Shown here: piece after piece, positions 6,618-61,604 of the stretch
Position numbering within the stretch: position 1 is the first letter of the stretch
How the letters are laid out: the number at the start of each line of letters is the position of its first letter
NCBI GenBank assembly: GCA_030737835.1
Contig: JAUJYN010000039.1
Span: forward strand, 434,001-498,000
Source of the DNA: Acorus gramineus
Lineage: Eukaryota > Streptophyta > Magnoliopsida > Acorales > Acoraceae
Reading direction: 5' to 3'
Length of the DNA: 64,000 nt
The notes under the pieces: generated by a model
Databases searched by the model: none
What the model was told of the DNA's origin: nothing
What the model saw: only the letters and a program-made list of their open reading frames with translations
Made by a program: the position numbers and the translations under genes

Positions 6618-7659
6618 TGTTATATATGTGTCACTTTTTGCCTTCTGGTCACCATTGGAGCATTCTGGCAGTTTTTCAACTTTTTCTTTTCTATCAGAAC
6701 CTTAGCTATCATCCTGAGCCTAAGGTCTCCGATTGAAAATCTGATTGCATATTATGTGTCCTGGTGCCATTTCAAGCCACTCACGAAAATTTCATCGAAT
6801 TCTGATAACTTTCAGAATTTCACAGTTCCGAATCGTATCCGGGTTTTGACCAAGCGAAAAGTCATTGGAAGAGTTTAACCAAGTCAAGTTTGACCCTTGA
6901 CTTGGTCAAAATCTTTTGTTTTCTAGTGTGGTTGGGTTGACTAGGGTCAAAGTGCAACTAAACCTAGCTTAACCTAATTAATTCTAAGTGTAAGTGAGTG
7001 GTGAGTGTGTGAGTGTGTGAGTAGCTATGTGTGGTGTGTGTGTGGTGACTTAAAGTCCACACCCACCAATAGTAATGGCCCTATTCATCTTCTTCTCTCT
7101 CTCAAGCTCTCAAAACCTCTCATCCCCTCTCTTTATTTCCCACTTTTGATCTAGTAGAAGGTGTTGGATTGGAAAACCCTAGAAGGAGAAAAGGAAGCCT
7201 TGCTAGGGCTGAGAAGAGGCTTGGTGGTGGTGTTTCGGTGCGCGAAGAGCACCCGATCTTCCCTCCTTTCCTTTCCTCCCTTGGATCTTGACGAGCGGTC
7301 ACGCGACGACCCGGGTATTGGTGAGTGGGACAATCCAACCCAGTAGGGAGGTGTTCGATGCACGTAGTCGTGCATTGCCCTCCCCTGGGGCACCATAATT
7401 GCGTATTAATTTGTAATAAGTGTAATCTGTGCTATGCATGTTCACTATGTTGTATCCGTGCCACCTTAGGCTTTGCATGCTAGGAATATGCACCCTTATG
7501 TTGTGGATAGAGGCCTATACATCCTGATACCATGTTTCCATGCTAGGAAAGCCTCGACCTATGCATGCTTCCCATTTAGTTTAATTTATTTAAATCAAAT
7601 GCGAGCTTATGATTATTAGCATGCCTTAGAGAATATTATAACCGTGTTGTTAGAATATA
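6618..7659 (+). mobile_element. Solo LTR L3 (type A), left half, intron-less
   Basis: It begins TGTTATATATGTGTCACTTT, the type A LTR start. The U3 is type II (GTATCCGGGTTTTGACC, TTGGTCAAAATC). Exon 1-like sequence runs to 7284 and is joined directly to the micro-exon at 7285. The roughly 800-bp GC-rich stretch found here in sister LTRs is absent. L3 is split at 7659/7660 by inverted LTR L4. Flanks of L3 are TCCTCGGCC (6609-6617) and TCCTCGACC (11668-11676), an imperfect 9-bp direct repeat rather than the usual 5 bp. Confidence 0.85.
7285..7320 (+). other. L3 micro-exon joined directly to exon 1
   Basis: The junction reads CCTCCCTTGG|ATCTTGACGAG at 7284/7285. In L14 the same exon 1 ends CCTTCCTTGG|GTGAGG (58724/58725) and its micro-exon starts CTTGCAG|ATCTTGACGG (59519/59520). 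Removing L14 bases 58725-59519 reproduces the L3 arrangement exactly. The micro-exon is 36 nt and is followed by GTGAGTGGG. This is the structure expected from a spliced RNA copied into DNA. Confidence 0.8.
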
Positions 7660-8177
7660 TGTCACGCCCCAGGGCGGCCGTCCCCGGGACGCGGCAAGTG
7701 TATACATGATATCAGTAGTCTATACATGAGATCAATAAAATACTCTAAACAACAACTAAAAGGACAACACAGATAAAAGCAAGGCTGACATGATATATAC
7801 ACATAGTGGAAGCTAAAAGACTGAGTCTGTAATCCAAAAACATACTACAGACTCGATACATAATCATATGTCCTGTGAGAGCCAATATACACACATACAT
7901 CCAAATAAAACACAAACTGGGTGCCCAAGCACGGAAATATATACATACAATCAAAAGGATGCTGATGGCCTCTAAAACTCGCGGGACGTGGCGCTACTCC
8001 GCTACTGGTGCAGTCTCTCGGGGAGCTCCTCCTTCAAGTCCGCCTCCGTAATCACTGGAGAAAAATATTATGCAAGGGGGTGAGCCACACGCTCAGTGAA
8101 TAGCACAACCCATGCATCACAATTTATATTAACCACAATTAATCAAATCAATAGCTTCCAAGTGGCAGGAACTACAC

Positions 8178-8340
8178 AAATCCGGTGGGTTGTTACATCG
8201 CCGAACCACCACACCCTCACCCTCACCCCTCAATAGGTGACATAGGATGTTGGGACTTAATAGGCTGATAATCATCCTTACACAAATCCAGTGGGTCGCC
8301 ACATCGCCGGCCCACCACACCCTCACCCTCACCCGTCAAT
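8178..8340 (-). repeat. L4 G-rich plus hairpin modules (two copies)
   Basis: Two units lie in tandem. In the first, arms 8185-8192 and 8202-8209 carry one mismatch. In the second, arms 8291-8298 (GTGGGTCG) and 8308-8315 (CGGCCCAC) pair throughout with one wobble. Each hairpin is followed on this strand by CACCCTCACCCTCACCC, the complement of the G-rich run. Confidence 0.7.
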
Positions 8341-9105
8341 ATGGCGACATAGGATATTGGGACTGACTAGGCTGTTGGTCGCCCTTGGTCCACCGATAGT
8401 CTCTCCCCACTCCGTAGGCCGCTTGGCCACTCCCACATTCAGCACAGTCCTTCCCAAATCAGGAGGTGCCTACTGATGGGATCCCTCCACGGGACTGCCT
8501 TTCTAACGCCAGGGCAGTCTCTACACGGATCCAACGAAGGGAACAGAACAGCCTATCCATGCGCATATGATCCACTCGGATCCGCCGACAACACATCTCA
8601 ACAACTCTAATGTCTTGAATTCTTTAGAATTCCTCCAGGGCGCATAACCAAGATGCGGGGAATATATAAGATAATAATGAGGAAAAGAATCTTGGGAGGG
8701 CAACCTGAGGTCCCGATATAGGATATCCCGACAACCCAACGAGGAACACGGAGTACCCTAGCCCGGGTCTCAATGTTGACCTCGCAAGGCCCCCTTAATA
8801 TTCCCCAAGGCATGCTAAAAATATCATAAGTCTGCATTTAATTTAATAAATCAAACTAATAGGACGCATGCATAGGTCGAGGCTTTCCTAGCATGATAAC
8901 AAGTGACAGGATGCACGGCTCTTACACATATCCTATGGGTGCAAGTCCTTAACATACAAGTCTAGGGTGGCATGCATTCTACACACTAATCATGCTTGCA
9001 CAGATTACATATTAATCAGTTAATATTAACTATGTGCCCCAGGGGAGGACGGTATACACCAAGTGCATATAGAGCCTCCCAACTGGGTTGGGTTGTCCCA
9101 CTCAC

Positions 9106-9996
9106 CGATAACCGGGTCGTCGCGCGACCGTCCGTCAAGATCTGCAAGACAGGGTAATCAACTTGGTGAGTAAAATACACAAATACCACAAAAATACACA
9201 AAATACACTAAAAATACCCAACACTCGGACAAGCGTACATACGGCCTGTACGCACACAAGTCCGAGCACCCCGACTCACTCCCGAACCCCCGGCAACCAT
9301 CCGCACGGCCACCCGCCCCGGCACACCACCGTGCCCCAGCCCGCGCGCCCAGGCGCACTGCCGAGCCCCCTGCCCGCACGCCAGGACACGCCGCCGAGCC
9401 CCCCCCGGGTGCACTGCGCGCTCACTGTGCCCCAGCGCAGCGACTCGCGCTCACACCCGCACGCTTCGCGCCTCCTCGCCTCGCCCCGCGCGCACCCCGC
9501 GCGCACCACCGGCTCCCCAGCGCCCCATCACCTCACCCGCGCGCACCCCGCGCGCACCACCGGCTCGCCTGGCCGCGCGCGCACAGCACGCCTGCGTCTC
9601 TACGCAGCGCTCCGCGCGCACGCCCCCGCACGGCCCCCTGCGCGCAGTATCCGCACGCGGTCCCCTGCGCACGCCCGCCCGCTCCGCGCGCACGCCCGCG
9701 CACGGCGCCCAGCGCGCAGCACCCGCACGCTCCTGCTCCACCCGAGCGCACGCCTGCGCGCATGCGCGCGTGCCCTGCCAGCTGCCCTGCCTGCCCTGCT
9801 CGCCAGCCTGCCTGCCTGTGCTGCCTGTGTTGCCAGCCTACCCGAGCTAACCTGCCATCCTGCCCGAGCCACCCTACCACCCCTCACCGGCCACCAATGG
9901 CCACTAAACACCACCAATCACCACCAGCAGCCACCCATACACAAAACCATCCTCCTAGCATGCATCTAAGCAAGAAAGGAAGGAAAGAAGGCTTAC
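9106..9996 (-). other. L4: putative intron 1 and micro-exon
   Basis: Read on the minus strand, donor GTAAGC lies at 9996-9991, the GC-rich block at about 9780-9290, and acceptor TTGCAG ends at 9142. The micro-exon is 9141-9106 (36 nt), followed by GTGAGT (9105-9100). The putative intron is 855 bp. The block also contains the Cys/Ala-rich and Pro/Arg-rich long frames that arise from its composition. Confidence 0.6.
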
Positions 9997-10775
9997 CCTA
10001 GGAGAGGAAAGGAAGGGAAGGGGACCGGGAGCTCTTCGTGCACCGAAACACCTCCCCAAAGACCTCCACCACCAAGATCTCTACCTAGCCCAAGGGGGGC
10101 TGAAATCAGAGAATAAAAGGGGGAGTTAGAGGGGGCCAAACAAGTGGGAACTCAAATCCGAGACCACCGGTGGATAGATCGGGATGAGATCTAACCTTTC
10201 TCTTCTTTGTGTTTTGAGATCCAAGCCCTCTAGCTAGGTCAAAACAAAGAAAAAGAGAGAGAGGGAGAGAGAAAATCAAATGGGGAAGATGATGAATAGT
10301 GAGGGGTTGAAGTCGTAGGATTTATTTATCCTCACTCCCACTCCACACACTCACACCCCTAATTAGATTAGCCCTAATTAGGTTTAGGGGGGGGGGGTTT
10401 AAGTGGGTCTAAGTGCAATTTGACCTAAGTCAACTCAACCACACAAAAGGACAAAAGAGTTGACCAAGTCATGGGCCCACATTGACCAAGTCAAGTCTCC
10501 CAATGACTTCTCGCTCGGTCAAAACCCGGATACGCCCCGGAACTGTGAAATTCTAAAACGTTACCGGAATTCGATGAAATTTTCGTGAGTGGCTTGAAAT
10601 GGCACCAGGACACATAATATGCAGTTAGATTTTCAATCGGAGTCCTCAAACTCAGGATGATAGCTAACAGTCCAAAATTTTAGCGGTTCCGATCGAAAAA
10701 TGAAAAAACTCAAAAACTGCCAGAATGCTCCAATGGTTACCAGAAGGCTAAAAGTGACACATATATAACAATATA

Positions 10776-11667
10776 TGTTTCCCCGCATCTTAGTTATGCG
10801 CCCTGGAGGAATTCTTCAGAATTCATGACATTAGTAGAGTTGCAATCGGTGTCGGCGGATCCAAGTGGATCGTATCCGTGGGTAGGCTGTTTCTCTTCCA
10901 TTCGTTGGATCCATGTAGGGACTCCTCAGCGTTAGACAGGCCGTCCTGACAGAGGGCTCCCATCAGTAGGTACCTCCTGATTGTGTTTTGGACTGTGCTG
11001 AATCGTGGGAGTAGACCAGGCGAGCTACGGAGTGGAGGAGAGGCTATCGGTGGACCAAGGGTGATTAACAGCCTAGTCAGTCCCAAAAGACCATGTTACC
11101 CTTGAGGGTGAGGGTGAGGGTGTGGTGGGTCGGCGATGTAGCAACCCATTGGATTGTGTAGTTGTTGCCACTTAGAGGCTATAAATGATTTGAGGTTAAT
11201 ATGAATTGTGATGCATGGGTTGTGCTATTCATTGAGCGTGTGGCTCACCCCTCGCATATATTTTTCTACAGTTATATCTGAGTCGGATCTGAAGGAGGAG
11301 CTCCCCGAGGCACTTCAGCGGTAGCGGAGCAGCGTCACGTTCTGCGTGTGAGAGGCCATCAGCATCCCCCTTTGATTGTATGTATTGTATTCCGTGCTTA
11401 GGCACATGTTTGTATTACATTTGGATGTCATTGTATATTTATTGGCTCTCACAGGACAGCTGATTTTGTATCGAGTCTGTAATATGTCTTTGAATTACAG
11501 ATTCAGTCTTTTAGCTTCCGCTATTTGTATATATTATGTCAACCTCTTTGTTGTCTGTGTTGTCAGTGCTGATATTGTTTAGAGTATATTATTGACCTCT
11601 TGTATAGACTGCTGATATCATATATACCATTGCCGCGCCTCGGGGACGGCCGCCCTGGGGCGTGACA
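10776..11667 (+). mobile_element. Solo LTR L3, right half
   Basis: It continues L3 after the L4 insertion: CCCCGCATCTTAGTTATGCG, the GAATTCTTCAGAATTC palindrome at 10810-10825, one hairpin module, a GAGCGTGTGGCTC hairpin with candidate acceptor TTTTTCTACAG (ending 11270), and the end GGGGCGTGACA at 11657-11667. L3 also lacks the roughly 145-bp GGGGCCTTGCGAGG segment present in L1 and L14, apparently deleted between AATATTA repeats near 7635. Without L4 the LTR is only about 1.94 kb. Confidence 0.85.
11095..11155 (+). repeat. L3 G-rich plus hairpin module (decaying)
   Basis: GTGGGTCG (11125-11132) faces CAACCCAT (11142-11149), with one mismatch and one wobble. The run GAGGGTGAGGGTGAGGGTG precedes it. 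The weaker pairing fits an older, non-mobile copy. Confidence 0.6.
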
Positions 11668-11893
11668 TCCTCGACCAACGGTATGGTCTCTCCCCAAAAG
11701 TCCCAAGAGTCTCCCTCCGGGAGTGAGGGTGAGGGTGACGTCGGTGATCCAGTAGTGTTGTATGGACCAGTAATCCCGGGTCTCCTCGACCAATGGTATG
11801 GTCTCTCCCCAAAAGTCCCAAGAGTCTCCCTCCGGGAGTGAGGGTGAGGGTGAGGTTGGTCGCGCCGCCGTGTGACCCTGTTATCCATGGGTA
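11668..11893 (+). mobile_element. LTR L2, continuation after L3
   Basis: It resumes L2 and holds two tandem copies of a type B unit beginning TCCTCGACCAA (11668 and 11785), each with CTCCGGGAGTGAGGGTGAGG. The second unit ends in a hairpin, GGTCGCG with a TGTGACC arm, near 11861-11880. L2 stops where LTR fragment L5 begins; the rest of L2 is not found downstream. Confidence 0.65.
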
Positions 11894-16795: not shown

Positions 16796-19248
16796 CCTGG
16801 TGGGGTTGCTAACCCCCCCCCCCCATCTGAAGGGGTGTTGTTAACACAGTTTTGTTAACAGTAACATATAGTATACATTTTTTTTATTTTAAAAAAAGCA
16901 GTATACCTCATCTAATGAGGTATGTAGTTTTATATAAAAAAAAATATGTAGTATATACTCTAATAAATCGTACAAACTCATTTATCGAATGTGGAAAAGA
17001 TTTATAACAAGATATATACCTTATAACAATGTAGATGGTTATTGAGATATGTGCGACTGTAATGGATTGATTGTAAAATGGACATATCATTTTCCTATAT
17101 AAAAAAACGCTACCACTATGTGAATTGAAAATGCTGCGCCCAAATTGTGACACTGTCGTGAGTCTGGATCCAGTCAGAAATGATTTCGGTCAGTTCAATC
17201 AATACTTACTGCACATCCTATTAATCGAACTATATAGCCCATGTAGCAAATTGCATAGTCAATTATTGGATTCATGTGTCGCTCTCCTGTTGGGTTCAGT
17301 CACTGTTGGGTTCAGTCAAACATGAGTTTGGTCAGTACTATCAGTATCTAATAGGAGAGTGATACCTATACACAATAATTGGTTGTGCAGTTCGATTAAT
17401 AGAATGTGTAGTTTAATTCATAGGTTATGTAATTTGTTACTAATTGGACTGATCGAAGTCAGTCTTGATTGGATCCGGACTCCACTGTCGTGCATGATAG
17501 ATGTTTAAATTAAAAAAGAAAAAGAAAAAAAAAGAAAAAAAATCTGAGGCTGATGAGGGAATGAGTGGATGCAATTCCATGGAACTTCCATGCCCTTTTT
17601 GGGTCCCAATTAATCATATCTATGGACAAAATTGTACTGCAAAGCCAAAGAAAATGGGAAAAAGGAAAAGCAATAGGTGGATTGAAGGTAGAAGCAGACA
17701 AATGGAAGATAGCAAATTCACACGTCTACACAAAAGTTAGTGTTCCATGAACCGGGGCATAATGAATAGATGGTTTTGTTTAATCCATTCGAATTTGATA
17801 TGAAAAGATTCACATGCTAAATTTAAGAACATAATCATTGTTTTTTTTTTTTTTTGTAGTACACCTTCTGTGACAATGTCATGAGTAGTGATAATTCCAA
17901 TTAAATTAGGATAATAGGATGTATATTTAAATTTCAAATCAATTCAAAATTAATGGACATTGACTGTATCCATTAATCCATCAAATTTATCACATCAATG
18001 TCAAACCATTGACCATTCTGATGGCCTCATACCAACACTCCAAAAGCATGTTATATCTCACAGCTCTTTGATTCATCCACTACAAATGCCAAGGGGAACA
18101 AATCACTATTGTATCCTATCTGGTAGCAATAAGCATGTTTCCATTGTATTTATTCATCCAATGGCATCTACCCAAGCACACAAAGGGTTCGCAACACAAT
18201 TTAAAAAATTACACGACATGCATGGAAACGAACAAAACTCTCATGAATCATCCAAATCTAGTATATAATGGATAATACATCCTTGGTTAGACTTTATAAT
18301 ATGTTGATACAACTGTTCAATAAGCATGAAAGGATACATGCCTCTCTCTCTCTCTCTCTCTCAAAAAATAAGCATGAAAGAATATGGAACATTTCCATGA
18401 ATGAGTTGCATGGCCATCACTCTTCCCCATTGCATTAATTCTTTTACATGGAACGGTCAATTTATATTTTCGTTTTAACTCAATTTAATATTGGATGGAC
18501 CCATTTTCAAGAGTTTTATGAAGGATTAGCATAATTATATTGGTTGTCCACATCGATGATGATATGTCATAGTCAACTTGATTGATCTATGTGCATTATG
18601 CTTGTCATCATGTTTCTTCACTACAAAAGTCCCTCCATCCTGTAGGATCAAAGCATGAAGTTGTCTTTTACAGCTACTTTCCCTACAAACTTTTGTGACC
18701 CACACATTATCAGTTCACCCACTTTGAAAAGAACTCATTCATGCAATACTGCCTGAGTGCATTCCTAAATGAGTTGATATCAAGAAAGTGGGAAGCTACT
18801 TTCATATGTCTGGGTTCTTTGAATTGAACTTTGACTCCTCTATCATAGTCTCCAAAGCCTCCTCAATATCAATACATGATTCATCATTAAACTTACCACA
18901 ACAAACCAATCACCCACTTATGCTCTCAATCCTCTAAATCCTTTGATGCCTCACCATCATTTGTTATAAGATTCCTTGGCTTCTGTTATACTTGTGTCAC
19001 TTTTAGCCTGCAGGTAACCGTTAGAGCGTCCTGGCAGTTTTAAAAATTTTTAGGGTTTTCGATCGGAACCGCTTATTTTTGGACTGTTAGCTATCGTCCT
19101 GAGCTAGAGGACTCCGATTGGAAATCTGACTGCATATTTGGTGTCCTGGTGCCATTTTAGACCTCTCACGAAAATTTCATCGAATTCCGGCATCGTTTCA
19201 AAAAATTTCGCAGTTCCGGGGCGTATCCGGGTATTTTAAGTCGCTCAC

Positions 19249-19256
19249 TATATAAG
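19249..19256 (+). promoter_or_regulatory. L6 TATA box
   Basis: TATATAAG lies about 265 bp after the LTR start. The conserved phrase ACTATTCATCATC follows at about 19281. This places the transcription start near 19280 and makes U3 only about 300 bp, with R-U5 about 2.8 kb. L11 has the same box at 41942-41949. Confidence 0.6.
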
Positions 19257-19574
19257 TGGGATCTAAAATTCCCGAGTTACTATTCATCATCCCCGACCTT
19301 GGACTCTCTCTCTCCTCTCCTCCGTTTTTCTTCCGTTTGAGCCCCCTACACCCCTCAAAATCAAAAACCTAAAGCACGGGAAGTGTAGATCGGGTCCCAA
19401 TCTACGCTCCGGTGTCTTCAAATCCCGATTCCGACGACTCTAGCCACTCCGTCCCCCTCTCTTTGTCCTCTGATTCGGGCCATTTCGAGGGCCGTGGTAG
19501 ATCGGGGCGTAAGAGAGCCTTTGGGAAAGGTTTCGGCGCGCGGAGAGCACCCGGTCACCCCTTCCTTTCCCTCG

Positions 19575-20454
19575 GTAAGCTTCTTTCCCTCCTTTTTCTT
19601 GTTTAGATGATTGCTAGGGGGGGGGGTTTCTGTGTTTGGGGGTGGTCGGCTGCAGTGGGGGTCGTCGGAGGGTGGTTGGAGGTGGTCGGAGGTCGTGGGA
19701 GGGGCGGTGGTGGCGCTCGAGCAGTGGCTGGGCTGTCCCGGGCAGCAGGCAGCAGCGGCAGCGGCCCAGGCAGCGCGCGGGCTGGGCGCGTGCGGGGATG
19801 CGCGCGTGCGCGCGGCGTGCGCGCGGGCGTGCGCGAGTCTGGCGCGAGGTGCTGGTCGTGCTGGGCGCGCGGGACGGGCTGGCAGTGCTGGCAGCGAGCG
19901 CAGGGGGCCGGCTGGGCGTGCGCGCGAGCGTGCGCGCGGGCGTGCGCTCGGAGGTGCGTGCGAGGTGTGCGCGAGGAGCAGCGGGGCAGGCGAGGTGCGT
20001 GCGAGGTGCGCGCGAGGTGCGGCAAGGTGGCGGAGGTGCGTGCGAGGTGCGCGCGAGGTGCGACAAGGTGGTGGAGGTGCGTGCGAGGTGCGGCAAGGTG
20101 GCGGAGGTGCGTGCGAGGTGCGGCAAGGTGGCGGAGGTGCGTGCGAGGTGCGGCAAGGTGGCGGAGGTGCGCGCGGGGTGCGCGCGGGGCGAGGCGCTCC
20201 GCGCGGGGGCGTGCGGGGTGCCTCGGGAAGCGCGGCGGTGCACCCGGGCGGTCGGGTGGCCGTGCGGGTGGTTGCCGGAGTGCTCGGGCTAACGTGCGTG
20301 CGGGTCGCGTGCACGTTTGCCCGAGTGTTAGGTGTTTGTTGTGGGTTTTGGGGTATTTTTTTGTGTATTTAATGATAACTGTGGATTTATACTTACCAAG
20401 TAATACCCTGTCTTGCAGATCTCGACGGGCGGTCGCGCGACGACCCAGATACCA
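19575..20454 (+). other. L6: putative intron 1 and micro-exon
   Basis: Donor CCCTCG|GTAAGC at 19575; acceptor TGTCTTGCAG ending at 20418; micro-exon 20419-20454 (36 nt) with donor GTGAGT at 20455. The putative intron is 844 bp, GC-rich with a T-rich tail from about 20310. Confidence 0.6.
19991..20176 (+). repeat. 30-bp GC minisatellite inside L6 intron
   Basis: A unit of about 30 bp reading GAGGTGCGTGCGAGGTGCGG + CAAGGTGGCG recurs about five times with small changes. The inverted counterpart is in L10 near 39955-40080 with a different unit number, so the array is unstable between otherwise near-identical copies. Confidence 0.8.
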
Positions 20455-21409
20455 GTGAGTGGGACAATCCAACCCAGTAGAGAGGCGTTGTACGCACTTG
20501 GGGCGTATACCGACCTCTCCTGGGGCGCCATGGATAAATATTACCTGCAATAATATGTAATCCATGCTTGTGTGAATTATGTGTAGAATGCATGCTACCC
20601 TAGTCCTTGCATGCTAGGGACTTGCACCCTTAGGATATGCGTATGAGCCATGCAGCATGTCCCCTGGTTTTCATGCTAGGAAACCCCGGCCTATGCATGC
20701 GTCCTACTAGTTTATTTATTAAATTAAATGCTGGTATCTGTTAGATCGCATGCCTTAGGATAATATTATAGGGAGGAGCCTTGCGAGGTCAACGCTGAGA
20801 CCCGTGTTAGGGTACTCCGTGTTCCTTGTTTGGTTGTCGGGATGTCCTGTATCGGGACCTCGGGCTGCCCTCCCAAGGTTCTAGTCCCAATAATATTATA
20901 TGTAATGATTGTATGATTGGTATAATTATTAGCATAGTTGGTGGATATTATAGGGGAGGGGCCTTGCAAGGACAGCGGTGAGACCCGGGTTAGGGTACTC
21001 CGTGTTCCTTGTTTGGTTGTCGGGGTATCCTATAACGGGAACTCACGCCGCCCTTCCGAGTTTCTTTCCCCCAATGATATTCCAGCCTTGCTGATTTTTG
21101 TACATGTTCCCGCATCTTGATGATGCACCTGGTTGAATTCAGAGGAATTCATGACATTTGAGTTGTGATGATATGTAGTCGGCGGATCCGAGTGGATCAT
21201 ATGCGTATGGATAGGCTGTTCTGTTCCCTGCGTTGGATCCGGTAGAGGCTACCCCCAGCGTTAGACAGGGCCTTCCTGACAGAGGGCTCCCATTAGTAGG
21301 CACCTCCTGATTTGGTTTCGGACTGTGCTGAATGTGGGAGTAGACCAGGCGGCCTACGGAGTGGAGGGAGAGACTATCGGTGGACCAAGGGTGACCAACA
21401 GCCTAGTCA

Positions 21410-21580
21410 GTCCCAAAATCCTATGTCACCCATTGATGGGTGAGGGTGAGGGTGTAGTGGGTTGGCGATGAGCGACCTACTGGATTTGTGAATGGATGAT
21501 TATCAGTCCCAATAGCCTATGTCACCCATTGATGGGTGAGGGTGAGGGTGTGGTGGTTCGGCGAAGTACGAACCACTGGA
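21410..21580 (+). repeat. L6 G-rich plus hairpin modules (two copies)
   Basis: The first hairpin is GTGGGTTG (21457-21464) with CGACCTAC (21473-21480), fully paired counting two G-U wobbles. The second is GTGGTTCG (21553-21560) with CGAACCAC (21569-21576), perfect. Against the L1 stem the fifth pair changes from G-C to T-A, a two-sided change. Each is preceded by GGGTGAGGGTGAGGGTG. Confidence 0.8.
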
Positions 21581-22371
21581 TTATGTTGTTATGTATTGAT
21601 GGCTGGATAAAATAATGGAATATTGGTAAATATTGTCTGTGATGCATGGGTTGTGCTGTTCACTGAGCGTGTGGCTCACCCCTCGCATATGTTTTTCCCC
21701 AGTGGTCACTGAGCCTGAGCTAGAGCCGGAGCAGCAGTGGAGCTTTCGAGGGATTTCTTCAGTAGCGGAGCAGCGCCACGTTCCGCGAGTGCCAGAGGTT
21801 ATCAGCATCCCTTCTTGACTGTATGTATTTGATTTCCGTGCTTGGCACGTGTTTGTATATGTTCAGTTGTATTTGTGTATATTGGCTCTCACAGGACAGA
21901 TGATTGAGTATCGAGTCTGTAGAATGTTTATTCACAGATTCAGTCTTTTGCTTCCGCATTTGGTGTATATATCATGTCAGCCCCTTTTGTTGCATGTGTG
22001 TCATTCTAGTTGTCTGTGTATGATATATATTATTGACCTCCTGTGTAGGCTTCTGATATGATACATACACTTGCCGCGTCCCTCGGTTGGCCGCCCTGGG
22101 GCGTGACAGCTTCTCTACTACATACTAAAGTCATTCAAGCAGAGTGAAAATTGATCATTCTTTCAACTTTCATCAATCTATATCATTTTTTAATAACCTA
22201 TCACAATCATCAATCATTCAATCATCTTCTATCACACAATGAAATTATTGATTCATTCACATTTTTAACAAAGCATCATATAAATGAAGAGAAATAATTA
22301 ACGATAAATAAAATATCCAAGTCCACTCCTTCTCTCAATTGTATTATCATTGAAAAATTATTAACATTAAA

Positions 22372-34202: not shown

Positions 34203-34739
34203 TGTCACGCCCCAGGGCGGCCGTCCCCGGGACGCGGCAAGTGTATATATGATATCAGTCTAAACAGGAGTTCAATAACATACTCACACAACAGCAAAAA
34301 TGACAACACAGACAAAAGCAGGGCTGACATGATATATACACAAATAGCGGAAGCTAAAAGACTGAATCTGCAATCCAAAAACATATTACAGACTCGATAC
34401 ATAATCAACTGTCCTGTGAGAGCCAATATATACAAAAACATCCAAATAAAATACAACCACGCGTACCCAAGCACGGAATATAACACATACAATCAAAAGG
34501 GATGCTGATAACCTCTGATACTCGCGGGACGTGGCGCTACTCCGCTACTGATGAAGTCCCTCGGGGAGCTCCTCCTCTAGATCTGACTCAGATGACACTG
34601 GAGAAAAATATTATGCGAGGGGTGAGCCACACGCTCAGTGAACAGCACAACCCATGCATCACAGATATATTAACCACTAGATATTCTTAACCACAATTTA
34701 TATTATTCAAGCCAATAAATGACAGGAACTACACAAATC

Positions 34740-34850
34740 CAGCGGGTCGCTATCGCCAACCCACTACACCCTCACCCTCACCCCTCAATAGGCGACATAG
34801 GATATTGGGACTTACAATCCAGTGGGTCGCTACATCGCCGACCCACCGCA
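34740..34850 (-). repeat. L9 G-rich plus hairpin modules (two copies)
   Basis: Arms GCGGGTCG/CAACCCAC (34742-34749, 34757-34764) pair in the sense RNA with two G-U wobbles. Arms GTGGGTCG/CGACCCAC (34822-34829, 34839-34846) are perfect. Confidence 0.75.
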
Positions 34851-35680
34851 CCCTCACCCTCACCCTCAATATGGTGACATAAGATATTGGGACTGACTAG
34901 GCTGATGGTCACCCTTGGTCCACCGATAGTCTCTCCCCACTCCGTAGGCCTTTTGGCCACCCCCACATTCAGCACAGTCCGTCCCAAATCAGGAGGTGCC
35001 TACTGATGGGAGCCCCTACACAGGACAGCCTTTCTAACACGGGGGTAGTCTCTACACGGATCCAACGAAGAGAACAGATCAGCCTATCCAACGCATATGA
35101 TCCACTCGGATCCGCAGACAACACATCAGAGCAACTCTAATGCCATGAATTCTTCAGAATTCCTCCAGGGCGCATAACCAAGATGCGGGGAACATATATA
35201 ATAATAATTATTAACAAGAGCTATAATTATAATTATTAACAAGAGTTATAATATTATTGGGACAAGAAACCTTGGGAGGGCAGCATGAGGTCCCGATACA
35301 GGACATCCCGACAACCAAACAAGGAACACGGAGTACCCTAGCCCGGGTCTCAATGTTGACCTCGCAAGGCCCCTCCCTATAATATTATACAAGGCATGCT
35401 AGCATTCAATTTAATAAATCAAACTAATAGGACGCATGCATAGGTCGAGGCTTTCCTAGCATGATAACGAGGTGACAGGATGCACGGCTCTTACACATAT
35501 CCTAAGGGTGCAAGTCCCTAACATACAAAGTCTAGGGTAGCATGCATACTACATTTTTATCATGCTTGCATGGATCACACATTACAACAAGTTAATATAA
35601 ATCCACGGTGCCCCAGGGGAGGACGGTACACGCCCAAGTGCGTATAGCGCCTCCCTACTGGGTTGGATTGTCCAACTCAC

Positions 35681-36746
35681 CGATAGTCGGGTCGTCGCGC
35701 GACCGTCCGTCAAGATCTGCAAAATAGGGTAATCAATTCAGTGAGTAAAATACACAAATAAATCCAAAAATACAATAAAATACACAACACTCGGACAGGC
35801 GTACATACGGCCTGTACGCACGCGAGCCTGAGCACTCCGACTCACTCCCGAACCCCCGGGCAGCCGTACGCACGGCCACCCAACCCAGGCACACAGCCGC
35901 GCCTCAACCCGCGCGCCCAGTCGCACGGCCGAGCCCAGCCCGCATGCCCGGACACCCTGCCGAGCCTCCCGGGTGCACCGCGCGCCCACTGCGCCCCAGT
36001 GCAGCAACCCGCGCGCACATCCGCACGCCCAGCGCCCCAACGCCGCACCCCGTGCGCACCACCCGCTCGCATCACCCGCTCGCACCACTCGCTCGACCAG
36101 CCCCAGGTGCACCCGCGCGCACTGCGCCCCAGCGCAGCGTCCCGCACACGCACCCGCCCGCACTGCGCCCCAGTGCAGCGCCCGCACACATGCCCGCTCA
36201 CACTCCCCGCTCGCACCGACTGCTCGCCCTGCGCGCACTACGCCCCCTGCGCAGCACCCGCACACCACCCGCTCGTCCACGCGCCCTTGCGCAGTGCTCC
36301 GCGCGCACGCCGCGCACTGCGCCCAGCGCGCCCGACCGCCCGTGCCCAGCGAGCCCGTCAGCACGCGCCCAGCGCGCCTGCCCGCAGCTCGCCCGCCTGC
36401 GCCTGCCTGCCTGCGCCCGACCGCCTGCGCCTGATCGCCTGCGCCTGTCTGCCTGCGCGCGCCGCTGGCCGCATGCGCCCGAACCGAGCTCCACCCGCGC
36501 GCACGCCCGCGTGCACGCCCACGCTGCCCGAGTACTGCCTGCCTGCGCGCTGCCTGCCTGCCTGAGCCCTGCCTGCCTGCGCGCACAGCCTACCCGAGCC
36601 CTCTACCACCACCCAACGGCCACCAATGGCCTCCAACTGCCTCCGACCGCCACCAACGGCCACCCTCCGCCACCCACAGCCACCCTAACTCAAAAACCTC
36701 CTCCTAACAAGCATCTAAACAAGAAAGGAAGGAAAGAAAGCCTTAC
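35681..36746 (-). other. L9: putative intron 1 and micro-exon
   Basis: On the minus strand: donor GTAAGG at 36746-36741, the longest GC-rich block in the window (about 36620-35830), acceptor TTTTGCAG ending at 35717, micro-exon 35716-35681 (36 nt), donor GTGAGT at 35680-35675. The putative intron is 1030 bp. The 333-codon open frame at 35944-36945 lies in the opposite sense across it and into exon 1, and is judged a composition artefact. Confidence 0.6.
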
Positions 36747-37526
36747 CCAAGGGGAGGAAAGGAAGGGAAGGGGACCGGGAGCTCTTCGTGCACCGAAACA
36801 CCTCCCCGAAGACCTCCACCACCAAGACCTCTTTCAACCTTCAAAGGGGTTGAAAATCAGAGGAGAAAAGAGGGGGTTAGAGGGGGTCAAACTCGTGGGA
36901 AGTCGAATCCGAGACCACCGGTGGATAGATCGGGATGAGATCTAACCTTTCTCTTCTTTGGGTTTTAGGTTTTGACCCCTTGAACTAGGTCAAATGGTGG
37001 TTTTAAAGAGAGGGAGAGAGAGAGAGAAATTTGGAAACGATGATGAATAGGGGGGGTTTTGTCTTGGTTGTGGGATTTCTTTATACTCACACCCACACCT
37101 CACACACTCACACCCCCTAATTAGATTAGCCCTAATTAGGTTTAGGCTAGGTTTAGGTGATCTAAGTACACTTTGACCCTAGTCAACCCAACCAAACTAA
37201 AATCCAAAACCATTTGACCAAGTCAAAGGTCAAATTTGACCAAGTCAAGTCTCCCAATGACTTTTCACACAGTCAAAACCCGGATACGCTTCGGAGCTAC
37301 GAAATTTTGAAGCGTCACCGGAATTCTATGAAATTTTCGTGAGTGGCTTGGAATGGCACCAGGACACATAATATGCAGTTAGATTTTCAATCGGAGTCCT
37401 CAAACTCAGGACGATAGCTAACAGTCCAAGATTTTAGCGGTTCCGATCGAGAAAACGAAAAAAACTGAAAAACTGCCAGAATGTCCCAACGGTGACCAGA
37501 AGGTTAAAAGTGACACATATATAACA

Positions 37527-41675: not shown

Positions 41676-41941
41676 TGTTATATATGTGTCACTTTTAACC
41701 TACTGGTAACCGTTGGAACGTCCTTGCAGTTTTTTGATTTTTTTTTTTGGTTTTCGATCGGTACCGCTAATTTTTGGACTGTTAGCTATCGTCCTGAGTT
41801 AGAGGACTCCGATTGAAAATCTAAGTGCATATTTGGTGTCCTGGTGCCATTTTAAGCCTCTCACGAAAATTTCATCGAATTCCGGTAACGTTTCTGAAAT
41901 TTCGCAGTTCCGGGGCGTATCTGGGTTTTTAAGTCGCTCGC

Positions 41942-41949
41942 TATATAAG
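41942..41949 (+). promoter_or_regulatory. L11 TATA box
   Basis: TATATAAG lies 266 bp from the LTR start, at the same place as in L6. ACTATTCATCATC follows 24 bp later. The transcript would start near 41972 and run through exon 1, the putative intron and on to gag. Confidence 0.6.
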
Positions 41950-42265
41950 GGTCGGATCTAATTTTCGAAACACTATTCATCATCCCTACCAATGTAATTT
42001 TCTCTCTCCCCTCTCTTCTTTTCTCACTATTGATCCCCCTAGACCCCTCAAAGCTTAAAACCTAAAACCTAGGAAGTGTAGATCGGGTCCCGATCTACAC
42101 CCGGTGGTTTCAAATCTCGATTCCGACGAGTTTGACCCCTCCGTCCGCCCTCTCTTCTTCACTGATTTGAGCCATTTCGGTGGTGGAGGTAGATCCGGGC
42201 GGTGGAAGCCTTTGGGGAAAGGTTTCGGCGCGCGGAGAGCGTCTGGACTTCCCTTCCTCCCCTTG

Positions 42266-42831
42266 GTAAGCCCTATTTCCCCTCTTTTCTTGCTTAGATG
42301 GATGTTAGGAGGTGGGTTTTGGGGTTGGGTGGAGGTCGGCGGCTGTGGGTGGCCGTCGGAGGGCTGTGGAGGTGGTCGGAGGTCGGTGGGTGGTGGTAGG
42401 GGTGCTCGGGTATGGGTGGGGGATGGTCTCGGGCAGCAGGTAGCACCGGCAGCAGCACAGCAGCGCAGCAGGCTGGGCGCGCGCGGGGCGTGCGGGGTGC
42501 TCGCGGGCCAGCGCGAGGCGTGCGGGGCATGCGCGGGCGGCTGCGCTGGGGCGCAGGGGGCGCGCGGTGCACCCGGGAGGTCTGGCTGAGGCGCGGCGGT
42601 GCACCCGGGTGGTCGGGCGGCCGTGCGGGTGGTTGCCGGCCGTGCGGGTGGTTGCCGGGGGTGCTCGGGCTAGCGTGCGTGCGGGTCGTATGCGCGTTTG
42701 CCCGAGTGTTAGGTGTTTAGTTGTGGGTTTTGTATGTTTGGGTATTTTTAGAGTATTTATGTTTGTTCTCACCATATTGAATGTCTGTCTTGCAGATCTA
42801 GACGGACGGTCGCGCGACGACCCAGATACTG
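42266..42831 (+). other. L11: putative intron 1 and micro-exon
   Basis: Donor CCCTTG|GTAAGC at 42266; acceptor TGTCTTGCAG ending at 42795; micro-exon 42796-42831 (36 nt); donor GTGAGT at 42832. The putative intron is 530 bp with a shorter GC-rich block. Confidence 0.6.
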
Positions 42832-43608
42832 GTGAGTGGGACAATCCAACCCAGTAGAGAGGTGTTATACGCACTTGGGCGTATACCGACCTCTCTTGGG
42901 GCACCATGGATAATATTGGCATGTGTAATATGTATATCATGCGAGCATGATTTAATTGTAGAATGCATGTTACCCTAGACTTTGCATGTTAGGGACTTGC
43001 ACCCTTAGGATATGGGTATGAGCCATGCACCATGTCCCCTGTTTCCATGTTAGGAAGCCCGACCGATGAATGTGCCCTACTAGTTTATTTATTAAATTAA
43101 ATGCTAGTTTTTGTTAAATTGCATGTTATAGTGAATATTATAGGGGAGGGGCCTTGCGAGGACAGCGGTGAGACCCGGGTTAGGGTACACCGTGTTCCTT
43201 GTTTGGTTGTCGGGGTGTCCTATAACGGGAACTCACGCTGCCCTCCCGAGTTTCTTTCCCCCAATGATATTCCACCCTTGTTATAACCTTATGCATGTTC
43301 CCCGCATCGTAGTTATGCGCCCTGGTGGGTTCTGAGGAATTCAGAACAGTAGTGTTGTTATGATGTGTTGTCTGCGGATCCGAGTGGATCATATGCGATG
43401 GATAGGCTGTTCTGTTCCCTTCGTTGGATCCGTGTAGAGACTACCTCAGCGTTAGACAGGTTGTCCCGTGCAGGGGCTCCCAGTAGTAGGCGCCTCCTGA
43501 TTTGGTAGAAGGACTGTGCTGAACGTGGGAGTGGCCAAACGACCTACGGAGTGAGGAGAGACTATCGGTGGACCAAGGGTGACCAACAGCCTAGTCAGTC
43601 CCAAGAGC

Positions 43609-44368
43609 CTATGTCACCCGTTGTAGGGTGAGGGTGAGGGTGTAGTGGGTTGGCGATGAGCGACCCGCTGGATTTGTCTATGGATGATTGTCAGTCCCAA
43701 TATCCTATCTCACTCCTGTTGAGGGGTGAGGGTGAGGGTGTAGTAGGTTGGCGATAGCGACCTGCTGGATTGGTGTAGTTAGTCCCAATATCCTTGGTCA
43801 CCCCTTGAGGGGTGAGGGTGAGGGTGTAGCGGGTTGGCGGAAGCGACCCGCTGGTTTTGTGTTGATTAGTCCCAATATCCTGGGTCACCCATTGAGGGTG
43901 AGGGTGTAGTGGGTTGGCGTTAGCGACCCACTAGTTTGAGGAATTGTTGTTAATTGTGGCTATGGTAATGTGGTTGTGGATGTTAAGGATTATCTGGTTG
44001 TGGTCAATATTGTCTGTGATGCATGGGTTGTGCCGTTCACTGAGCGTTAGACAGGTTGTCCCGTGCAGGGGCTCCCACTAGTAGGCGCCTCCTGACTTGG
44101 AAGGACTGCGCTGAACATGGGAGTGGCCAAACAACCGCGGAGTGAGGAGAGACTATCGGTGGACCAAGGGTAACCAACAGCCTAGTCAGTCCCAAGAGCC
44201 TAGGTCACCTGTTGAGAGGTGAGGGTGAGGGTATGGTGGGCCGGCGATGCGACGACCCACAGGATTATGAATGGATGATTATCAACCCGCTAAGTCCCAA
44301 CATCCTAGGTCACCTGTTGAGGGTGAGGGTGAGGGTGAGGGTATGGGGTTCGGCGATGAACGAACCCC
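43609..44368 (+). repeat. L11 array of G-rich plus hairpin modules (six)
   Basis: Arms are: GTGGGTTG/CGACCCGC (43645, 43661); GTAGGTTG/CGACCTGC (43743, 43758); GCGGGTTG/CGACCCGC (43829, 43844); GTGGGTTG/CGACCCAC (43909, 43924); GTGGGCCG/CGACCCAC (44236, 44253; one mismatch); GGGGTTCG/CGAACCCC (44345, 44361; perfect). Second, third and fifth pairs vary on both sides, while the loop GGCGnnnG is more constant. Each has the GTGAGGGTGAGGGTG lead. Confidence 0.82.
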
Positions 44369-44877
44369 CGGATGTGATATTATGCCACTTGTGGCTTATG
44401 AATTGATTAAATGTGGTTAATATGAACTGTATGCATGGGTTGTGCTATTCACTGAGCGTGTGGCTCACCCCTCACATATTGTCTTTTCAGTGATCTCTGA
44501 GGGAGGAGCTTCCCGAGCGACTACACCGGCAGAGGGCAGCGCCGCGTCCCACGAGTTTTGAGGCCATCAGCACCCTTCTTTCTGTTGTATGTATATGTTC
44601 TGTGCTTGGGCACTTAGTTGGATTATATTTGGATTTTGTTGTGTATATTATGCATGTTGGCTCTCACAGGACTTATGATTATGTATCGAGTCTGTAGTGT
44701 GTTTTGACTACAGACTCAGTCTTTTAGCTTCCGCATTTGTATATATTATGTCAGCCCTGCTTTTATCTGTGTGTCATTTTAGTGATTGTTTGTGGTTTAT
44801 TATTGATTTCCTGTCACTGATATCATATATACACTTGCCGCGTCCCGGGGACGGCCGCCCTGGGGCGTGACAAAAGT

Positions 44878-49547: not shown

Positions 49548-50083
49548 CAGTTTTAAAATTTTAGGGTTTTTCGATCGGAACCGCGTAATTTCAGACTGTT
49601 AGCTATCGTCTGAGCTAGAGGACTCCGATTGAAAATCTAACTGCATATTATGTGTCCTGGTGCCATTTTAAGCCACTCATGAAAATTTCATCGAATTCTG
49701 GTATCATTTCCAAAAATTTCGCAGTTCCGGGGCGTATCCGGGTTTTTAAGTCGCGCTCTACTTAAAAGGAATCAAAAATATCTCAACACTATTCATCATC
49801 TTCCCGACTTGCTCTCTCTCTCTCCTCTCCTCCATTTTTCTTCCGTTCGAGCCCCCTACACCCCTCAAAACCAAAAACCTAAAGCACGGGAAGTGTAGAT
49901 CGGGTCCCGATCTACGCTCCGGTGTCTTCAAATTCGAATTCCGACGATCCTAGCCTCCCCGACCTCCCCTCTCTCTCCTCTGTTTCGAGCCAAATCAAGG
50001 GCCGTGATAGATCGGGGCGTGAGAAGGCTTGTGGGAAGGGTTTCGGCGCGTGGAGATCCACCGGACGCCTCCTCCTCCCCTCG

Positions 50084-57949: not shown

Positions 57950-58724
57950 TGTTATATATGTGTCACTTTTTGCCTTCTGGTAACCATTGAGACATTCTGG
58001 CAGTTTTTCGGGTTTTTTCGTTTTTCGATCGGAACCGCTAAAATTTTGGACTGTTAGCTATCGTCCTGAGTTTGAGGACTCCGATTGAAAATCTAACTGC
58101 ATATTATGTGTCCTGGTGCCATTTCAAGCCACTCACGAAAATTTCATCGAATTCCGGTAACGTTTCAGAATTTCACAGTTCCGAAGCGTATTCGGGTTTT
58201 GACCGAGCGAGAAGTCATTGGGAGACTTGACTTGGTCAAATGTGGGCCCATGACTTGGTCAACCCCCTTTGTTTTCTAGTGTGGATGGGTTGACCCAAGT
58301 CAAAGTGCACTTAAACCTCCCCTAAACCTAGCTTAACCTAATCTAATTTCAAGTGGTGAGTGTGTGAGGTGTGTGTGTGTGTGGTGCTTTAAGTGGGCGC
58401 CCATGCATAGTGTTTCCCCCACTATTCATCATCTTCTCCACTCAATCCCTCTCTCTTCCCTCTCTTTAAAACCCCCTTATGACCTAGCTAAGGTGGTTGA
58501 AACCAAAAACCCTAAGAAGAGAAAGGTTAGGTTTTGTCCCGATCTATCTCCCGGTGGTCTCGGATTCGAGTTCCCACGTGTGTGACCCCTTCTCATGCCC
58601 CCTTTTCTCCTCTGATTTCAGCCATTTTTAGGGCTGAAGGAGATCTCGGTGGTGGTGGTCTTGGAGGTGGTGTTTCGGTGCGCGAAGAGCAACCGATCTT
58701 CCCTTCCTTCCTTTCCTTCCTTGG

Positions 58725-59555
58725 GTGAGGTTTCTTTCCTTCCTTTTCTTGTTTAGATGCATGTTAGGAGGGTGTTTTTGGGTATGTATGGCTTCCATGG
58801 TGGTTTTGGTGGCTGTCGGTGGCTGTGGGTGGTGGTTGGGGTGGGTGGTTGGCTCGGGTAGGCTGGCAGGGCAGGCGGGATGGCAGGCGCAGGGTAGGGC
58901 GCTGTCCTGCAGGCTGGCAGGGCGCTGTCGGGCAGGCTGGCAGGGCACGCGCGCGTGCAGGCGTGCGCGAGGGTGGAGCAGGAGAGTGCGGGTGCTGCGC
59001 GCTGGGCGCCGTGCGGGGGCGTGCACGCGGGGCGCTGCGTAGAGGCGCAGTGCGTGCCACGCGCAGGGGGCTGCGTGCGGATGCTGCGCGCAGGGCGCCG
59101 TGCGGGGGCGTGCACGTGGAGCGCTGCGCAGAGGCGCAGGCGTGCTGTGCGCGCGCCGTGAGGTGAGCCGGTGGTGCGCGCGGGGTGCGCGCAGGGTGCT
59201 GCGCTGGGGTGCAGGGCGTGCGGGTGTGCGCGCTGGTTGCTGCGCTGGGGCGCAGTGAGCGCGTGGTGGATCCGGGGGGACTCGACAGCGGGTCCGGGCA
59301 TGCGGGCAGGGGCTCGGCAGTCCATATGGGCGAGCGGGCCGGGGCTCGGCTGTGCGCCTGGGGCGGGTGATCGTGCGTACGGCTGCCCGGGGGTTCGGGA
59401 GTGAGTCAGGGTGCTCGGACTCGCGTGCGTACGGGCCGTATGTACGCTTGTCCGAGTGTTGGGTATTTTAGTGTATTTTTGTGTATTTTACTCACCGAGT
59501 TGATTACCCTGTCTTGCAGATCTTGACGGACGGTCGCGCGATGACCCGGTTATTG
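58725..59555 (+). other. L14: putative intron 1 and micro-exon
   Basis: Donor CCTTGG|GTGAGG at 58725; GC-rich block about 58850-59400; T-rich tail; acceptor TGTCTTGCAG ending at 59519; micro-exon 59520-59555 (36 nt); donor GTGAGT at 59556. The putative intron is 795 bp. Its borders match the sequence missing from L3 to the base. Confidence 0.7.
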
Positions 59556-60300
59556 GTGAGTGGGACAACCCAACCCAGTAGGGAGGCGCTATATGCACTT
59601 GGGCGTGTACCGTCCTCCCCTGGGGCACCGTGGTTATATTAACTTGTGTAATATGTAATCCATGCAAACATGATTGTTATGTAGTATGCATGCACCCTAG
59701 ACCTTGTATATTAGGGACTTGCACCCTTAGGATATGTGTAAGAGCCATGCATCCTGTCACCTTGTTATCATGCTAGGAAAGCCTCGACCTATGCATGCGT
59801 CCTATTAGTTTAATTTATTAAATTAAATGTGAACTTATGGTATTTTAGCATGCCTTAGGAAATATTAAGGGGCCTTGCGAGGTCAACATTGAGACCCGGG
59901 CTAGGGTACTCCGTGTTCCTTGTTTGGTTGTCGGGATGTCCTATATCGGGACCTCATGGTGCCCTCCCAAGGTTTCTTTTCCCAATAATATTATATATGT
60001 TCCCCGCATCTTGGTTATGCGCCCTGGAGGAATTCTGAAGAATTCATGACATTAGAGTTGTTGAGATGCGTTGTCGACGGATCCGAGTGGATCATATGCG
60101 TATGGATAGGCTGTTTCTGTACCCTTCGTTGGATCCGTGTAGAGACTGCCCCAGCGTTAGAAAGGCCGTCCCGTGAGAGGGCTCCCATCAGTAGGTACCT
60201 CCTGATTTTGGATTCGGACTGTGCTGAATGTGGGAGTGGCCAAGCGGCCTACGGAGTGGAGGAGAGACTATCGGTGGACCAAGGGTGATTAACAGCCTAG

Positions 60301-60380
60301 TCAGTCCCAATATCCTATGTCACCATATTGAGGGGTGAGGGTGAGGGTGTGGTGGGTCGGCGATGTAGCGACCCACTGGA
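60301..60380 (+). repeat. L14 G-rich plus hairpin module
   Basis: GTGGGTCG (60352-60359) and CGACCCAC (60369-60376) form a perfect 8-bp stem, after GGGGTGAGGGTGAGGGTGTG. It is the same as in L1. Confidence 0.78.
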
Positions 60381-60903
60381 TTGTGTAGTTCCTGCCACTT
60401 TGAGGCTTTTAATAATTATTGTGGTTAATATAAATTGTGATGCATGGGTTGTGCTATTCACTGAGCGTGTGGCTCACCCCTCGCATATATATTTTTCTAC
60501 AGTTATCACTGAGTCGGATCAGAAGGAGGAGCTCCCCGAGAGACTTCATCAGTAGCGGAGCAGCGCCACGTCCCGCGAGTGTTAGAGGCCATCAGCATCC
60601 TTTCTTTTGATTGTATGTATATATTTCCGTGCTTGGGCACTCGTTTGTATTATTTGGATGTATTCGTGTATTGGCTCTCACAGGACAGTTGATTATGTAT
60701 CGAGTCTGTAGTATGTTTTTGAATTACAGACTCAGTCTTTTAGCTTCCGCTATCTGTGTATATATCATGTCAGCCTTGCTTTCGTCTGTGTTGTCATTTT
60801 AGTTGTTGTTTAGAGTATTTTATTGATCTCCTGTATAGACTGCTGATATCATGTATACACTTGCCGCGTCCCGGGGACGGCCGCCCTGGGGCGTGACAAA
60901 AGT

Positions 60904-60916
60904 TGGTATCAGAGCC
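60904..60916 (+). other. Primer-binding site of element Y (tRNA-iMet)
   Basis: TGGTATCAGAGCC, five bases after the LTR end, as in element X. The next bases (TGGTCCTGTCAGAGCCAA) are also shared with X, showing that the two elements use the same leader. Confidence 0.92.
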
Positions 60917-61017
60917 TGGTCCTGTCAGAGCCAATTGTCTTCTTTTCGTAGAGATGAGTCCTAGGATTTCTATATGAGTATTCTGATCCTAGTGTCTGGT
61001 TTTCTTAGGTTGCTGAT

Positions 61018-61604
61018 ATGCCTCCTCGCAGAGGACGCGCGGACGTGGTCCCTCTCGACCTTTGGAGGTTTCCGGACCTACCAGAGGCGAGGATGCTACT
61101 GGAGAGTCCTCGGCTGTGAGGCCAGGATCGGCGCAGGAGCCTCCTGCATGGGAGCGCGCGTTCACGCGGATAGCGGATTTGGTGGAGACTCAGACCAGGG
61201 CACTGGAGGCCCAGACGAGAGTATTGGCTGAGCAGGCGCGAGAGATTCAGGAGCTGAGGGCCGCCCGTGATGCAGTTCCACAGGTCCCCTTGGTGGCAGA
61301 TCCGCCTGTGGTACCCGACGTACCCCCAGTCCCTGTGGTGGTTCCGGCGGTGAGAGTTCAGGATCCCCAGGAGAGGGAGGTGGGGCTAGAGGCTGCAGCG
61401 CGAGTGCAGCAGAGCGGCCTCGCTGCCTTTCTGAAGCTCCACCCTCCCGAGTTCCATGGCCAGACGGCGGATCCCCTTGCCCCAGAGCGTTGGTTGATGG
61501 AGGTGGATACGATCTTCTCGACCATGCATTGCACCGACCGCCAGCGAGTCTCCCTGGCCACCTTCATGCTGAAGGGTAGCGCCGCCGACTGGTGGGCTAC
61601 CTGA
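61018..61604 (+). pseudogene. gag: gag N-terminal half, element Y
   Basis: The ATG at 61018 opens MPPRRGR. One base is missing near 61034 compared with X, and the Gag frame continues from about 61062 through a helical VETQTRALEAQTRVLAEQA region and the start of the capsid-like domain (FLKLHPPEFHG, WLMEVDTIFSTM). A TGA at 61602-61604 replaces the AGA of X in the phrase WWATRSVD. The element therefore cannot make full Gag. Confidence 0.85.

Follow-up and report, generated by a model that had tools for sequence, protein, structure and literature searches.

Exact intron-less copies point to a spliceosomal intron inside the long terminal repeat of a plant Ty3/gypsy retrotransposon family

The balance between translation and copying of the transcripts of LTR retrotransposons has been called a major question (PMC3735527). 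According to the accessible parts of a 2025 review, plant LTR elements are generally without introns, with Ogre and EVADE as exceptions (PMC12786077), and for BARE, DNA copies of the spliced RNA could not be amplified from the genome, as the consulted portion of that study describes (PMC3735527). Among retroviruses, SIV and HIV-2 are described in the available text as having a functional leader intron in R-U5, suggested there as a regulator of packaging (PMC1766366), and up to 10% of the packaged RNA in HIV-1 and RSV may be spliced (cited in PMC5086612). The same review recalls the 1985 experiment with an intron-marked Ty element, in which exact intron loss proved the RNA intermediate (PMC12786077).

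The locus described here lies in a window of 64,000 nucleotides, the whole stretch of Acorus gramineus DNA that was analysed (contig JAUJYN010000039.1, 434001-498000). The initial annotation had noted in this window an LTR copy, L3, that lacks a stretch exactly at the predicted splice sites. This was confirmed: exon 1 (CCTCCCTTGG) is followed at 7284/7285 by the micro-exon (ATCTTGACGAG) with nothing between, and the joint matches the intron borders of another LTR, L14. The borders are exact, and their sole latitude is a one-base slide from the flanking G. The start proposed for L3, position 6618 (letters TGTTATATATGTGTCAC), was also retained, but its extent (6618..7320) was not, as L3 continues to 7659 and resumes at 10776-11667. 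The full copy is a single LTR in two stretches, 6618-7659 and 10776-11667, split by a minus-strand LTR:

6618..7284, plus strand: 5' part of the intron-less LTR L3, with exon 1 at its end
7285..7320, plus strand: L3 micro-exon (exon 2), 36 nt, fused directly onto exon 1
7321..7659, plus strand: downstream LTR part of L3, from predicted donor 2 (GTGAGTGGG) to the nested insertion
7660..10770, minus strand: nested within L3, a solo LTR of the same superfamily that carries the intron, with the duplication ATATA at 7655-7659 and 10771-10775
10776..11667, plus strand: 3' remainder of the L3 LTR, terminating GGGGCGTGACA

The flanks of L3 show no clear 5-bp duplication (CGGCC on the left, TCCTC on the right). 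A longer imperfect TCCTCGGCC/TCCTCGACC is common to positions 6609-6617 and 11668-11676.

L14 shows the homologous sites with the intron in place, reading TTGG/GTGAGG at 58724/58725 and TTGCAG/ATCTTG at 59519/59520. A second intron is predicted downstream of its micro-exon, and it contains the remainder of the LTR together with the primer-binding site:

57950..60898, plus strand: intron-bearing LTR L14, the 5' LTR of an element extending beyond the window
58725..59519, plus strand: L14 intron 1, 795 bp, GTGAGG to CTTGCAG, 69% GC, a branch-like CTCAC motif lying close to its 3' end
59520..59555, plus strand: L14 micro-exon (exon 2), 36 nt
59556..61008, plus strand: predicted intron 2 of L14, 1453 bp, GTGAGTGGG to TTTTCTTAG, with conserved donor and acceptor sites
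60902..60916, plus strand: primer-binding site region (GTTGGTATCAGAGCC), immediately 3' of the LTR end and within predicted intron 2
61018..61020, plus strand: gag ATG, preceded by 9 nt of predicted exon 3

Other LTRs of the window served for comparison:

34203..37526, minus strand: intron-bearing comparison LTR, intron of 1030 bp
18984..22108, plus strand: intron-bearing LTR of a second subfamily, donor CTCG/GTAAGC, acceptor CTTGCAG/ATCTCG
41676..44872, plus strand: LTR with acceptor TTGCAG/ATCTAG, then primer-binding site and gag-pol coding stretch

The acceptor TTGCAG/ATC was present in 9/9 of the intron-bearing window LTRs displayed, L14 included. Three window rows without GGTRAG were rejected as donors, being GC-rich chance matches to the exon-1 motif. 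Comparing the window with itself, we observed that two LTRs (44044-44872 versus 51589-52422, and 42471-43740 versus 50666-51882) are 98% identical in the 3' third and only ~76% alike upstream of it, and that 30368-31702 matches 44047-42723 at 90%. These LTRs are apparently mosaics, which suggests that subfamilies have recombined. A second LTR-end variant, GACGCCCGGGGCGTGACA, stands beside or replaces the usual CGCCCTGGGGCGTGACA at 52423-52558 and 29943-29951.

By its sequence features the family is a Ty3/gypsy LTR retrotransposon. In window pieces between 45275 and 49544, the Pfam models Retrotrans_gag, RVT_1, RT_RNaseH and Integrase_H2C2 scored above their cut-offs and rve below (24.3 of 32.6 bits); gag, RT, RNase H and integrase come in Ty3/gypsy order, and TG-to-CA LTRs, a primer-binding site, a polypurine tract and a 5-bp target-site duplication are all found. 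The integrase frame of the element starting at 41676 enters, at 49546-49566, an LTR without approximately its first 70 bases. The chromodomain end is consequently absent there and was sought in another copy, L013, where Pfam Chromo matched positions 400-720 with an E value of 7.7e-5 and 23.0 bits, under the curated 25.1. The family is probably a chromovirus.

The signals of intron 1 were examined in 21 introns, keeping only rows with a GGTRAG donor and exon 2 in reach. All 21 run from GTRAG to TTGCAG and have a CTYAC motif ~30 nt before the end, so that a GT donor and an AG acceptor in consensus context were found in 21/21 introns and at 9/9 window acceptors. Their length is 591-1256 bp. Nearest donor-acceptor pairs on one contig and within 3 kb (55 pairs, from 70 donors typed out of 100 listed and set against the listed acceptors, 15 remaining unpaired) gave 524-2264 bp with a median of 915, the longest of which may be nested or mispaired. 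Both ranges exceed the 470-1030 bp first given for the variable stretch, which was too narrow. A U-rich body is a usual, though not obligatory, feature of plant introns, and intron 1 does not have it: the body is 65-73% GC with a T fraction of 0.18-0.24 over the whole length of the 21 introns. A T-rich stretch, with 25-31 T, makes up the last 60 bases. The GC-rich body may lower splicing efficiency and so help genome RNA to stay unspliced.

We searched the whole assembly (398.6 Mb, 137 contigs) for the joint seen in L3. The union of the searches gave 46 LTRs on 21 contigs with the exact exon 1/micro-exon joint, L3 included; judged from the copies examined these are at most 38 insertions, 8 of the 46 being second LTRs or duplicates (six element pairs, the L058 tandem and L018/L020). 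With a query of 115 bases across the L3 joint, 40 of 2,027 candidates were scored; 21 of these span the joint, all exactly, and 19 start at the exon-2 border, with 100% identity there in 17 and 98% in 2. The acceptor was present in 9/9 of those 19 that were fetched. Over the query, intron-less copies are 81-98% identical to L3. Patterns anchored in exon 1 found 13 joints when strict and 34 when relaxed (control 0), and a joint-blind pattern, which sets no condition at the joint, found 35 copies (control 0).

These counts bear directly on DNA deletion, random or microhomology-mediated, as the cause of the missing stretch. Large LTR families do lose stretches, and a short CTTG is common to both borders. 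Against this, the joint-blind copies are exact in 35/35 cases, in line with the original argument that a random deletion is unlikely to hit both borders, and none of the 35 retains the CAG before ATC that CTTG microhomology would leave. Genome-wide, the bins for joints ~14-55 and ~45-86 bp longer held no copy, and the shorter-joint bin held one unrelated match and another exact joint, in a copy whose exon 1 is shortened. The test proposed at the outset, exact junctions versus scattered borders, therefore came out at 46 exact joints and 0 displaced ones in the bins searched. The joint is moreover present in both LTRs of all six judged elements (below). Deletion could still account for an individual copy, but the distribution of borders speaks against deletion as the general explanation, which we regard as extremely improbable.

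Intron-bearing copies are far more frequent. The acceptor-joint pattern had 9,454 matches genome-wide (control 0) and the donor pattern 7,311 (control 8), so that about half a percent of the LTRs would have lost the intron, a rough figure given the unequal stringency of the patterns.

In established retroelement replication, the 5' end of the RNA supplies the R-U5 of each new LTR, and for this reason a spliced leader is expected to leave both LTRs intron-less. In the six elements that could be judged at both LTRs, this was the case in 6/6, each within matching 5-bp duplications:

L009/L010: intron-less element, duplication GTGGT
L014/L013: intron-less element, duplication TGTAA
L011/L017: intron-less element, duplication GTATA
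L056: intron-less element, duplication ACCAT
L057: intron-less element, duplication TTATG
L060/L059: intron-less element, duplication AGACT

The LTRs of intron-less pairs are 95.8-98.7% identical, the last pair being compared over the first 1.6 kb only. Four elements are left out of the 6/6 figure: L004, with the duplication GGGAC, misses the exon region of the partner LTR; nested insertions separate L012 and L015 from their partner LTRs; and the fourth is L058 (C55:157200-166200), which has two intron-less LTRs ~6.1 kb apart with a primer-binding site after each, a tandem LTR-internal-LTR-internal arrangement. Seven more single-LTR copies have matching duplications (GTAGG, GGTTT, AGTAT, CTTAT, GATCC, CAGAG and TAATA), those with AGTAT, CTTAT and GATCC being broken by nested insertions. 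Where an intron-less LTR begins an element, the primer-binding site is still present 3' of it. The internal regions of L056 and L057 measure ~2.8-2.9 kb, whereas the window element has ~4.7 kb before its break, and these two are possibly non-autonomous or deleted members.

Existing LTRs might also have been converted in place by spliced cDNA, instead of arising as new insertions from spliced RNA. Recombination of cDNA is known for yeast Ty elements, and solo LTR copies cannot tell the two routes apart. However, intron-less LTRs at both ends of 6/6 judged elements, within matching duplications, are the ordinary product of replication, which makes conversion very unlikely to be the prevailing route; it would in any case need a spliced RNA too and differ only in the last step.

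We asked how often the intron was lost. An unrooted tree was built from 29 of the 46 intron-less LTRs and the 20 available intron-bearing ones, 49 in all, leaving out the intron-bearing L026, whose 5' part was empty, and ten rows that repeated loci already included. It needs at least 12 changes of intron state, 9 of them forced by well-supported branches. Separate trees of the 5' part and the 3' part need 14 and 11 changes. Change counts by themselves cannot separate gain from loss. An ancestral intron-less state with a later gain of the stretch would fit the divergence of the intron-less copies, some of which are old, given their 81-98% identity to L3, but we find it scarcely credible: intron-bearing copies stand on all main branches of the tree and are far commoner (9,454 acceptor matches versus 46 joints), the splice sites are homologous across subfamilies, and repeated gain at one base is implausible.

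Exact joints occur in several subfamilies, and their letters follow the subfamily. The end of exon 1 and the start of exon 2 covary as CTTGG/ATCTTG, CTTG/ATCTCG, CTTG/ATCTAG and CCAAG/ATCTGG, and the 35 joint-blind copies have 25 different exon-1 ends. At least 13 of these 35 copies (7 ends) are letter-identical to a donor-bearing exon-1 end; this is a lower bound, as the comparison was made with 40 donor-bearing ends typed from 100 donor-pattern rows listed. The exon-2 haplotype of L3 itself is the one seen in the intron-bearing copies L022-L030.

Identical exon-1 and exon-2 letters were observed at three intron-less joints (C59:1166670, C59:1321347 and C69:689630), which suggests one intron-less lineage that multiplied, or duplicated loci. 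L013, L014, L018, L020 and L021 form one group on the tree. Both clusters suggest that some intron-less elements did replicate. In addition, the intron-less label is somewhat clustered (14/500 shuffles are as low in changes), a pattern expected from LTR pairs and small lineages.

It could thus be argued that one or a few ancient losses, from few splicing events, passed from subfamily to subfamily, either through template switching between co-packaged RNAs or through gene conversion. The mosaic look of the window LTRs is in favor of this, as are the joint haplotype shared by the three C59 and C69 copies, the tree group just mentioned, and the fact that a tree with only 20 intron-bearing LTRs shows a partly clustered label. 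We nonetheless consider it unlikely, considering the covariation of exon-1 ends and exon-2 starts with subfamily, the changes needed by both partial trees and the intron-bearing haplotype of L3. A single origin of the intron-less state was rejected as unlikely from trees and haplotypes, with the caveat of recombination. Repeated loss of intron 1 is therefore supported, in several separate events, many of which are represented by just one insertion, although LTR recombination could reduce the true number. The idea that a spliced RNA gave rise to one intron-less LTR lineage stood as to the spliced source and failed as to the single lineage, given at least 9-12 changes in the tree.

Conserved sites further predict a second intron, which would run from the micro-exon to a point 9 nt short of the gag ATG. 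Donor 2, GTGAGT, directly follows the 36-nt micro-exon in 49/50 rows. The candidate acceptor 2, TCTTAG/G, lies between the primer-binding site and gag in 20/20 distinct sequences from several subfamilies, many of whose neighbouring bases are variable. Predicted intron 2 of L14 holds 36 ATGs and intron 1 holds 10; the short leader still has some, namely two within the final 250 bases of exon 1 and one within the micro-exon of L14. Genomic copies with the micro-exon joined to the gag leader (GTTGCTGATATGCC), or with exon 1 joined straight to it, numbered 0 in both cases, a result predicted by the two-intron model and equally expected if intron 2 does not exist. Splicing of intron 2 would remove the primer-binding site and leave an RNA unable to prime reverse transcription. 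As the intron-less LTR copies keep the intron 2 region, their template would have been spliced at intron 1 only. Inspection by eye for a TATA box and a poly(A) site gave nothing convincing.

Taken together, we give a probability of roughly 0.9 to the reading that the LTR contains a spliceosomal intron and that spliced RNA was reverse-transcribed, repeatedly, into LTRs lacking it exactly. Exact removal in RNA-derived products was seen in 46 joints and in 6/6 judged elements, and the initial proposal that the long LTR leader is spliced and reverse-transcribed is supported by the 46 exact joints, the splicing itself being deduced from its DNA products. Intron 1 would belong to R or U5, the part of the LTR transcribed as leader, with a transcription start that we infer upstream of exon 1. 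The RNA normally reverse-transcribed would retain intron 1, which would explain its presence in almost every LTR of the family. Now and then, an RNA spliced at intron 1 only, with its primer-binding site intact, would be packaged and copied, and both LTRs of the new element would be without intron 1, their exons meeting exactly at the splice sites. L3 would be one such copy derived from spliced RNA, now a solo LTR. The second intron would strip the primer-binding site from the translated mRNA and keep fully spliced RNA out of replication.

A plausible but tentative extension is that the two-intron leader acts as a sorting switch between three kinds of RNA. Full splicing would give a short-leader mRNA that is translated and uncopyable, the unspliced RNA would be the genome, and RNA spliced at intron 1 only would leak into replication, accounting for roughly half a percent of LTRs. 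Intron-less elements would seldom multiply, intron 1 being required for expression or to hold the genome RNA unspliced.

Under the spliced-RNA reading, the family would offer a natural, countable record of the separation between translation and copying failing, in which each intron-less insertion from an intron-bearing parent stands for one spliced RNA packaged, copied and integrated. Length differences between LTRs of one family can then be splicing scars, which bears on LTR annotation.

How does this family compare with those already described? Tekay/Del elements with ~3 kb LTRs, such as rice Retrosat2, RIRE3 and RIRE8, have LTR length in common with it, as well as the LTR 3' end GGGCGTGACA and a Ty3/gypsy gag-pol, as far as the available parts of these accounts show (PMC3485330, PMC6317226); assignment to Tekay/Del from LTR length and LTR 3' end is a lead. 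The LTR start differs, being TGTCACACCC in RIRE8 and Retrosat2 (PMC3485330) and TGTTATATATGTGTCAC here, and the Tekay/Del elements have an extra ORF0. In the available text of one of these accounts, the word "intron" is absent and "splic" occurs once, in a reference title (PMC3485330).

BARE1 (PMC3735527), Ogre and EVADE (PMC12786077) are likewise plant LTR retrotransposons with a spliced intron, and BARE resembles the family here in that, in the available account, translation uses spliced RNA and replication another RNA (PMC3735527). However, the introns of BARE and Ogre are located in or between coding regions, according to the parts of the sources at hand (PMC3735527, PMC12786077), while the one described here is inside the LTR. 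Penelope-like elements are also retroelements that spread with introns kept, but they belong to a different class, with pseudo-LTRs and another replication mechanism, as described in the accessible text (PMC3846280); in the family here, the kept intron is occasionally lost exactly. The 1985 Ty experiment, as summarized in the review, used an inserted intron in yeast (PMC12786077), whereas here the intron is natural and within the LTR.

In the open-access literature, searched by titles and the beginnings of abstracts, we found no intron in a plant LTR; one candidate precedent (PMC5542766) was rejected, as the part seen concerns an engineered vector matched through the name LTR1. As far as this literature shows, an intron inside a plant LTR with exact natural losses is new. 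The initial statement that LTR introns are undescribed thus holds for plants in the literature searched and fails for SIV/HIV-2, where the available text describes an intron in R-U5 (PMC1766366). It is this system that comes closest, with an intron likewise inside the LTR-derived part of the leader (PMC1766366). SIV/HIV-2 are lentiviruses, whereas the family here is of plant-type Ty3/gypsy, with an intron of at least 0.5 kb and 46 natural loss copies. For the leader intron of SIV/HIV-2, no collection of genomic loss copies is known to us.
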